From positions 6,718,850 through 6,782,849 of the forward strand of contig NZ_JACBZA010000001.1 of assembly GCF_013408535.1 (NCBI RefSeq): a stretch of DNA of 64,000 bases, written 5' to 3'. The notes under the pieces were generated by a model. That model had not been told where the DNA came from. It saw only the letters and a list, made by a program, of their open reading frames with translations, and searched no databases. Position numbers and translations under genes: made by a program. Of the stretch, positions 25,629 through 26,855 are shown one piece after another (the first letter of the stretch is position 1; each line of letters starts with the position of its first letter). This DNA is from Actinopolymorpha cephalotaxi. GTDB lineage: Bacteria > Actinomycetota > Actinomycetes > Propionibacteriales > Actinopolymorphaceae.

Positions 25629-26477
25629 TCACCGCCGGGACAGGCCGAGCGCCGAACGCGCGACGCCGGCCCAGCGGTCGGCCGGGACCGCACCCGCGCG
25701 AACTCCCCGGTCCAGGCCCGACTCACCGAGGATCCGGCCGGCCGCCGACCTGCCCGCCACCTCGGCGACCACGGTGCGCGCCGGTTGGTCCGGGCACCGG
25801 AACGCCTCGGCCAGCATGGCGTACAGCAGCCGCCGAACGCGCCGCCCTGTGAGCCCGGGGCGGGGCCGCACCCGCAGATGCGCGGAGTCCACCGACGGCG
25901 CGGGCGTGAACGCCGCAGCCCGGACCCGGCGTACGACCCGCAGTTCGTACGCGGCCCCCCACCAGGCGGTCTCCAGGTCGCGGGGCGCCGCACGGCTGAC
26001 GCGCTGGGCGAAGCCCCACTCGATCACCAGGTCGGCGGCGGCCAGGCTGCTCCCGCCGCCGTTCGCGTCCGTCAGCAGCCGGCGCAACAGCAGGGTGGAC
26101 AGGTCGTACGGAATGGACGCGACCACCTGGAACGGCCGCCCTGGCAGCGGCACTCTCGTCAGGTCGCCGGCCACCACCCGGACGTTCGGATGGTCGCCGA
26201 ACCTGCGCTCCAGCCGGGCGAGGAATCCGGGGTCGCGTTCGATGGCGAGGACCCGGGCGCCGGTGCGCGCGAGTGGGGCGGTGAGCGTGCCCGGGCCGGC
26301 GCCGAGGTCCAGGACGAGGGAGTCCGGCCCGAGGGCGGCGGACTCGACCAGGCCGCGCACCGCCGTACCGGACCGCAGCAGGTGGATCCCGTGGTGGTTG
26401 GCGGTGGACGGACGGCGGTCGGTACGACGGTCGGTACGACGGGCAGGGGTGGACGAGCGGGGCGTGCGGGCAGGCAT
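25629..26477 (-). CDS. Erm/KsgA-type rRNA adenine N6-methyltransferase
   Basis: A 282-residue Rossmann-fold RNA adenine methyltransferase. SAM motif I is LDLGAGPGTLT (residues 56-66), motif II ends in AIERDP, AGDLTRVPLP is motif III and the catalytic motif IV reads SIPY (121-124) where the family usually has NIPY or NxPF. The remaining length fits Erm enzymes, which methylate A2058 of 23S rRNA and give macrolide-lincosamide-streptogramin resistance. The ATG at 26477 follows GAGGAC. The upstream leader holds a small ORF with an RLR motif and a terminator-like hairpin, strongly suggesting drug-inducible expression. Resistance itself is inferred, not shown. Confidence 0.82.
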   Translation of the reverse strand: MPARTPRSSTPARRTDRRTDRRPSTANHHGIHLLRSGTAVRGLVESAALGPDSLVLDLGAGPGTLTAPLARTGARVLAIERDPGFLARLERRFGDHPNVRVVAGDLTRVPLPGRPFQVVASIPYDLSTLLLRRLLTDANGGGSSLAAADLVIEWGFAQRVSRAAPRDLETAWWGAAYELRVVRRVRAAAFTPAPSVDSAHLRVRPRPGLTGRRVRRLLYAMLAEAFRCPDQPARTVVAEVAGRSAAGRILGESGLDRGVRAGAVPADRWAGVARSALGLSRR

Positions 26478-26527
26478 GACGTCCTCGAGATGTGCGCTGC
26501 GGATGGGAGCCTTGGGAAGAGGCCCCA

Positions 26528-26541
26528 CCGAGAGCTCTCGG
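26528..26541. repeat. 14-bp perfect palindrome in the Erm leader
   Basis: CCGAGAGCTCTCGG lies 51 bp before the methyltransferase start and could form a second leader hairpin. Confidence 0.6.
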
Positions 26542-26572
26542 GAGGTCGGAAAACACCTGGTCGGCCTGAGAC

Positions 26573-26631: not shown

Positions 26632-26664
26632 AAAAACGCCCAGGTCAGCGTGCGGACGCCTGGG
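26632..26664 (-). terminator. Attenuator-like hairpin with U-tract after the leader ORF
   Basis: On the - strand CCCAGG (26664-26659) pairs with CCTGGG (26644-26639), with an inner GCGT/ACGC pairing, followed by CGTTTTT (U5 at 26636-26632). It begins 9 nt after the stop codon of the leader ORF, so a ribosome stalled in the ORF could change its folding. Confidence 0.6.
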
Positions 26665-26672
26665 TCAGACCG

Positions 26673-26735
26673 TCACCGAGAGGTCGGCGGGGCGGTGAAC
26701 CGCAGGCGGACGAACAGCGCGTTGAACGCACACAT
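26673..26735 (-). CDS. Leader peptide with RLR macrolide-arrest-like motif
   Basis: ATG 26735 opens a 20-residue frame, MCAFNALFVRLRFTAPPTSR, ending at TGA 26675-26673. It lies exactly 7 nt after a TAGGGT box, so it would be read from a leaderless mRNA. The RLRF segment at residues 10-13 matches the R-x-R (+x+) motif at which macrolide- or ketolide-bound ribosomes stall, as in the ErmD leader with its MRLRF start. A terminator-like hairpin follows at once and the Erm-type gene lies 195 bp downstream. Translation is inferred from this architecture. Confidence 0.6.
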   Translation of the reverse strand: MCAFNALFVRLRFTAPPTSR

Positions 26736-26742
26736 GGGCGCG

Positions 26743-26748
26743 ACCCTA
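26743..26748 (-). promoter_or_regulatory. -10 box TAGGGT for the leaderless Erm leader transcript
   Basis: TAGGGT on the - strand lies 7 nt before the leader-peptide ATG at 26735. Confidence 0.6.
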
Positions 26749-26769
26749 GTGCGGGTACGCGACGGCCCG

Positions 26770-26787
26770 CGACCGAATATCCGGTCG
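26770..26787. promoter_or_regulatory. Dyad at the -35 region of the Erm leader promoter
   Basis: CGACCGAATATCCGGTCG is an 18-bp dyad with one mismatched pair, about 22 bp upstream of the -10 box, with an AT-rich centre. It could be a regulator site. Confidence 0.4.
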
Positions 26788-26855
26788 AGGGCCAAGGCGA
26801 TCCGCCGGCGCTCCAGGGGTACCAGGCGTTCAAGGTGTACGAGAGGGACGAGACC

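Follow-up and report, generated by a model that had tools for sequence, protein, structure and literature searches.

What controls the Erm-type gene carried on the chromosome of Actinopolymorpha cephalotaxi? The DNA shown above lies in a stretch of 64,000 nucleotides, here called the window, from a complete genome of 6.86 Mb in the order Propionibacteriales (closest named relatives Actinopolymorpha rutila, A. pittospori and A. alba). From the parts found upstream of the gene, their order and spacing, and their conservation, we consider it likely that this erm gene is governed by a ribosome-mediated transcription attenuator that responds to macrolides or ketolides.

Organization of the leader region

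All features described below lie on the minus strand. The -10 box TAGGGT (26743..26748) was read directly and stands 7 nt 5' of the ATG, at 26735, of a 20-codon leader ORF, MCAFNALFVRLRFTAPPTSR (26673..26735), which is probably translated in a leaderless manner. No -35 box was recognisable upstream of TAGGGT at this locus. Within the ORF the codons CGC CTG CGG (26700..26708) encode Arg-Leu-Arg, the candidate stall site. A hairpin, CCCAGG...CCTGGG with CG-TTTTT ending at 26632 (26632..26664), begins 8 nt past the leader stop, and 195 nt separate that stop from the ATG (26477) of the gene for an Erm-type rRNA adenine methyltransferase of 282 aa (25629..26477). Its Shine-Dalgarno sequence is GAGGA (26482..26486). 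Box, spacing, R-L-R ORF, hairpin with a U5 tract and Erm-type gene had all been listed in a preliminary description of this DNA, and direct reading confirmed each of them. The GTG at 26528, which an ORF finder listed as a longer erm start, is an unlikely start codon; it falls inside a conserved hairpin (see below).

Just 5' of the leader promoter, at 26755-26795, lies an inverted repeat, GGCCCGCGACCG...CGGTCGCGGGCC. The repeat is imperfect in the window but plain to see in A. rutila and its near congeners, and it might serve as an operator or terminate the SIS-domain gene. A WhiB7-type promoter, though evident in another family of the order (f3, see below), was not seen at the window locus.

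The Erm-type methyltransferase

The top NCBIfam match of the 282-aa product was Erm23S_rRNA_broad (E 1e-43), with a Pfam match to RrnaAD, and Erm(38) was the best match among solved structures. The product scored 149.2 bits against Erm23S_rRNA_broad and 95 bits against ksgA, which places it nearer Erm than KsgA; since 149.2 bits is under the curated NCBIfam Erm cut-off of 212 bits, we call the gene Erm-type and give it no named Erm class. A separate KsgA-like gene is present in the same genome. In a KsgA-rooted tree the Erm-type proteins formed a single clade (support 0.99) with the window protein on the Erm side. This clade has two main branches, one with the canonical Erm proteins and the other with the window's family, family f23, Kibdelosporangium, Pseudonocardia, others and the short Erm of family f3. 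Throughout the genus the erm gene sits after the same SIS-domain gene, and it is therefore an old chromosomal gene. Taken by similarity, its product is a putative Erm 23S rRNA methyltransferase. Erm proteins usually have N-I-P-Y at a site where all 8 members of the window's family have S-I-P-Y (VVASIPY, window 26060-26140).

Conservation of the leader in the genus and family

The window locus was compared with seven orthologous loci of the genus and family, giving eight loci in all. Absence of the ORF and RLR from relatives with the methyltransferase had been named beforehand as a refuting outcome, and it did not occur: box, spacing, ORF and R-x-R are retained, together with the methyltransferase, in 7/7 orthologous loci (six RLR, one RPR). 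The leaders of these orthologs begin MCAFAFFVRLRF..., MCMCACAFFIRLRL..., MCACAFFVRLRL..., MFGFTACFFCRLRS..., MCAFYFIRLRS..., MVAGSFAACFFIRPRS... and MCMQFSCAFFVRLRS..., and in 8/8 loci a TANNNT box stands 6-8 nt from the leader start.

The reading frame is intact as far as the R-x-R in all eight loci. The distance from ATG to R-x-R varies between 21 and 36 nt and is in every case a multiple of three, and one-base indels 3' of RLR shift the leader stop among frames. Hence the frame is of importance only as far as the stall site, as expected if translation counts up to that site and RNA alone counts beyond it. When further copies of the leader were sought in the same genome and its relatives, the strong matches were all at the erm locus and the remainder were weak. 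Comparison with Rfam gave no match for any of ten erm loci with E values up to 1, nor did the window region match a model when gathering scores were applied.

RNA segments and the proposed mechanism

Four RNA segments can be drawn between the stall codons and the erm gene. Segment 1 (CCCCGCCGA, family form CCCCACCGA; 26684..26692) can pair with segment 2 or 4. Segment 2 (CTCGGTGACGGTCTGACC; 26663..26680), near-invariant in the eight loci, contains the leader stop codon and can pair with 1 or 3. Segment 3 (GACCTCCCGAG; 26537..26547) can pair with 4, in a terminator-like hairpin, or with 2; and segment 4 (CTCGGTGGGG; 26515..26532), with a short pyrimidine tail, CCTCTTCC, is the candidate attenuation point. 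Hairpin 1:2 encloses the leader stop, and 2:3 and 1:4 are the alternative pairings. Hairpin 3:4 (26547-26523), about 46 nt 5' of the erm start and about 40 nt 5' of its Shine-Dalgarno sequence, is predicted in 8/8 loci, mostly with one bulge or mismatch. The U tail behind it is variable: weak in the window genome (CCTCTTCC) and in several species, and near-absent in A. pittospori.

In the window's family, 94% of the cells in the 1:2 plus 3:4 arrangement and 92% of those in the 1:4 plus 2:3 arrangement were paired, as against 23-54% in slid controls; the sequences are few and too similar to one another, and as they show no compensatory change, the evidence for this pairing is sequence conservation. 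Family f23 has a different sequence in the corresponding position; it folds into a hairpin followed by a U tail and displays covariation, five pairs having changed on both sides (12 cells; 0/500 shuffles). When folding was predicted with a ribosome masking the RNA, a stall (mask to +14) gave P(3:4) of 0.00-0.11 in 8/8 sequences, and a ribosome at the stop gave a higher P(3:4) than the stalled one in most of them. A mask to +17 brought 3:4 back in most sequences, so that the outcome shifts with 1-3 nt of the assumed footprint and folding counts as support, not proof, for a switch.

The mechanism that we propose would run as follows. Transcription would start at the leader ATG or within one base of it, so that a ribosome could bind directly to the exposed 5' end and follow RNA polymerase closely as it translates the 20 codons. 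When no drug is present, this ribosome would reach the stop codon and thereby cover segment 2, since the stop lies within it; hairpin 3:4 would then form, and transcription would halt before erm. A ribosome that has bound a macrolide or ketolide would stall when the middle codon of Arg-Leu-Arg, that for Leu, occupies its P site; segment 2 would be free to pair with 3, and 1 with 4, no terminator would arise, and erm would be transcribed. What we infer here is where transcription starts, which drug induces, and that termination and antitermination take place.

A leader signature across Actinomycetes

Erm-type genes were sought in 395 genomes of Actinomycetes, and 110 loci were read, namely 90 erm loci and 20 ksgA controls. 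A leader was defined as an ORF of 5-35 aa with [RK]x[RK] whose start lies 5-8 nt from a TANNNT box. Such a leaderless-spaced R-x-R leader was found upstream of 65/90 erm loci, as against 0.85 of 90 loci expected (maximum 3) from dinucleotide shuffles of the same regions; these figures count loci, which are not independent events because related genomes share leaders, though the loci span at least ten families and encode diverse peptides. Split by the Erm cut-off, 44/69 loci above it and 21/21 lower-scoring ones carry the leader. None of the 20 ksgA controls had a leader of this kind. The gap histogram of all R-x-R ORFs peaked at 7 nt (49 ORFs) and 6 nt (13), with about 0.2 expected for each.

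With families f1 and f3 added and slightly wider limits, a leader was present in 104/119 loci; the other 15 lacked one inside the widest limits, and a few more have one still farther off. Among 93 distinct leaders the middle residue of R-x-R was Leu in 25, Pro in 24, Ile in 18, Ala in 10, Met in 6 and others in 10, and an SD-like motif preceded just one. Hence a single signature, TANNNT, 6-8 nt, a start codon and R-x-R, precedes most of the actinomycete erm genes examined. The preliminary description had read the window locus as a leaderless start and an R-x-R leader serving attenuation upstream of erm, and that reading is strongly supported by the conservation seen both within the family and class-wide.

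Two groups have leaders of a particular form. A group of erm genes from one large genus (g33; loci L072, L074 and L076-L079) has long, conserved, GTG-started leaders of the form VAANNAIIxTGLGRGxxHSVRMRRGPGALTGPG, which are leaderless-spaced too. In family f3, of the same order as A. cephalotaxi (L016-L036), every one of the 21 short erm genes has its start overlapped by a leaderless ORF, for example MITYFVMVRRARLRAGEGCLGMASAR, and the erm frame is +1 relative to the leader in 21/21. That frame opens only at leader position +19 or +22, and its sole candidate start is a GTG at +28/+31 with no clear Shine-Dalgarno sequence; frameshifting or an internal start could couple stalling to erm translation there. 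A WhiB7-like promoter pattern (GAAAATGCTTTGA ... TAGGGT) lies about 25-45 nt 5' of the leader ATG in nearly all f3 loci.

Alternative explanations

Arg codons are frequent in window DNA of 73% GC, and a short ORF with R-x-R could be a meaningless product of such composition. Only two R-x-R ORFs with leaderless spacing occur on both strands of the 64 kb, however, and RLR is found solely in MCAFNALFVRLRFTAPPTSR; together with its presence in 8/8 family loci and the class-wide excess over shuffles, this leaves chance an almost negligible probability, already contradicted by conservation. It is quite improbable as well that the leader senses not macrolides but a lack of amino acids or translation stress in general. 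Leaderless sORF attenuators for cysteine are reported for mycobacteria (Canestrari 2020, cited in PMC9094748), several leaders here contain Cys, and actinobacterial whiB7 responds to many stresses (PMC12421871). Yet Cys is not constant among the leaders, and the sole feature common to these diverse peptides is R-x-R with a middle L, P, I, A, M or D, as in +X+ arrest.

The remaining alternatives keep the leader and move the point of control. Termination might take place at the U5 hairpin (26664-26632), in this genome only or besides the conserved hairpin. In favour of the U5 hairpin are its UUUUU, which no other U tract of the region equals, and a predicted energy of -11.0 kcal/mol. Its z score against shuffles is only -0.76, however, and its stem is private to the window genome: the homologous stretch folds with -6.5 kcal/mol or otherwise in the three closest relatives and is absent farther out. 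As a conserved terminator, the role that the preliminary description gave it, the U5 hairpin was therefore rejected, not being kept even in congeners, and we think it unlikely that termination occurs there. The leaderless R-x-R leader of that description stands; its choice of hairpin does not, and the conserved hairpins, at the leader stop and at 26547-26523, were not described in it. Control could instead be translational, as is classic for ermC and ermB, with the stalled leader switching the RNA so as to expose the erm ribosome binding site rather than blocking termination. The weak U tail of 3:4 in several species would suit such control, but the conserved hairpin stops about 40 nt short of the Shine-Dalgarno sequence. 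For 7/8 sequences the three states (stalled, at the stop, free) do not differ in the predicted accessibility of Shine-Dalgarno sequence and AUG, and in A. pittospori stalling raises that of the Shine-Dalgarno sequence from 0.03 to 0.22 while that of the AUG drops. With so little difference among states, the model of a sequestered Shine-Dalgarno sequence was set aside, and translational attenuation seems to us a doubtful reading.

Comparison with known systems

A close likeness to the proposed attenuator is ErmDL, the leader of Bacillus ermD. Its translation arrests at R-L-R while Leu is in the P site, and the need for the motif is strict with telithromycin and less strict with erythromycin (PMC8298421). 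ErmDL and the window leader are both short R-L-R leaders before an erm gene, and the same stop with Leu in the P site is proposed here. ErmDL belongs to another phylum. The window leader is leaderless-spaced, and its drug response is a proposal.

The Erm(X) leader of corynebacteria, MLISGTAFLRLRTNR, likewise contains RLR and precedes an erm gene of actinobacteria. In Corynebacterium striatum pTP10 (L167:660-760) we read TTGACC, 18 nt, TATAAT, exactly 7 nt and ATG, so that this known clinical leader is leaderless by its spacing. Unlike the window gene, Erm(X) is mobile and has an AT-rich promoter with a TTGACC -35 box and a different RNA after the leader. The Streptomyces erm genes ermSV and tlrA combine a leader peptide with transcription attenuation, as proposed for this actinomycete erm gene too.

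The polycysteine leaderless short ORFs of mycobacteria are ribosome-mediated attenuators, as is proposed for the window leader; they are reported to sense cysteine and control sulfur genes, and are not known to carry R-x-R (Canestrari 2020; PMC8764745, PMC9094748). The resistance regulator whiB7 has an upstream ORF and a conserved terminator, but its ORF is led by a Shine-Dalgarno sequence about 10 nt upstream and controls a regulator instead of a methyltransferase (PMC4128351).

Implications for erm regulation in actinomycetes

Drug-sensing erm leaders and the +X+ motif were already known; the interesting part is leaderless spacing as a class-wide signature of erm genes. Among open-access papers we found none that links leaderless translation to erm leaders; most subscription papers lie outside this set, which makes priority uncertain. 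A 2024 survey of erm upstream regions reported uORFs without a universal pattern (PMC11264731), and a standard uORF finder has a Shine-Dalgarno search among its steps (PMC10219788). Such a search may overlook leaderless leaders.

Leaderless +X+ leaders occur on each of the two deep Erm branches, and that of Erm(X) conforms to the pattern. We therefore lean towards the view that such leaders are both ancestral and predominant as antibiotic sensors of erm genes in actinomycetes, with leaderless initiation as part of the sensor. Such initiation would let the first ribosome load once the 5' end emerges from RNA polymerase. If this is true, inducible macrolide and ketolide resistance in actinomycetes, that of corynebacterial Erm(X) included, would depend on leaderless translation. 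Predictions would also follow about the inducing drugs and about the effect of initiation inhibitors on induction, and there would be a simple means of annotating inducible erm genes.
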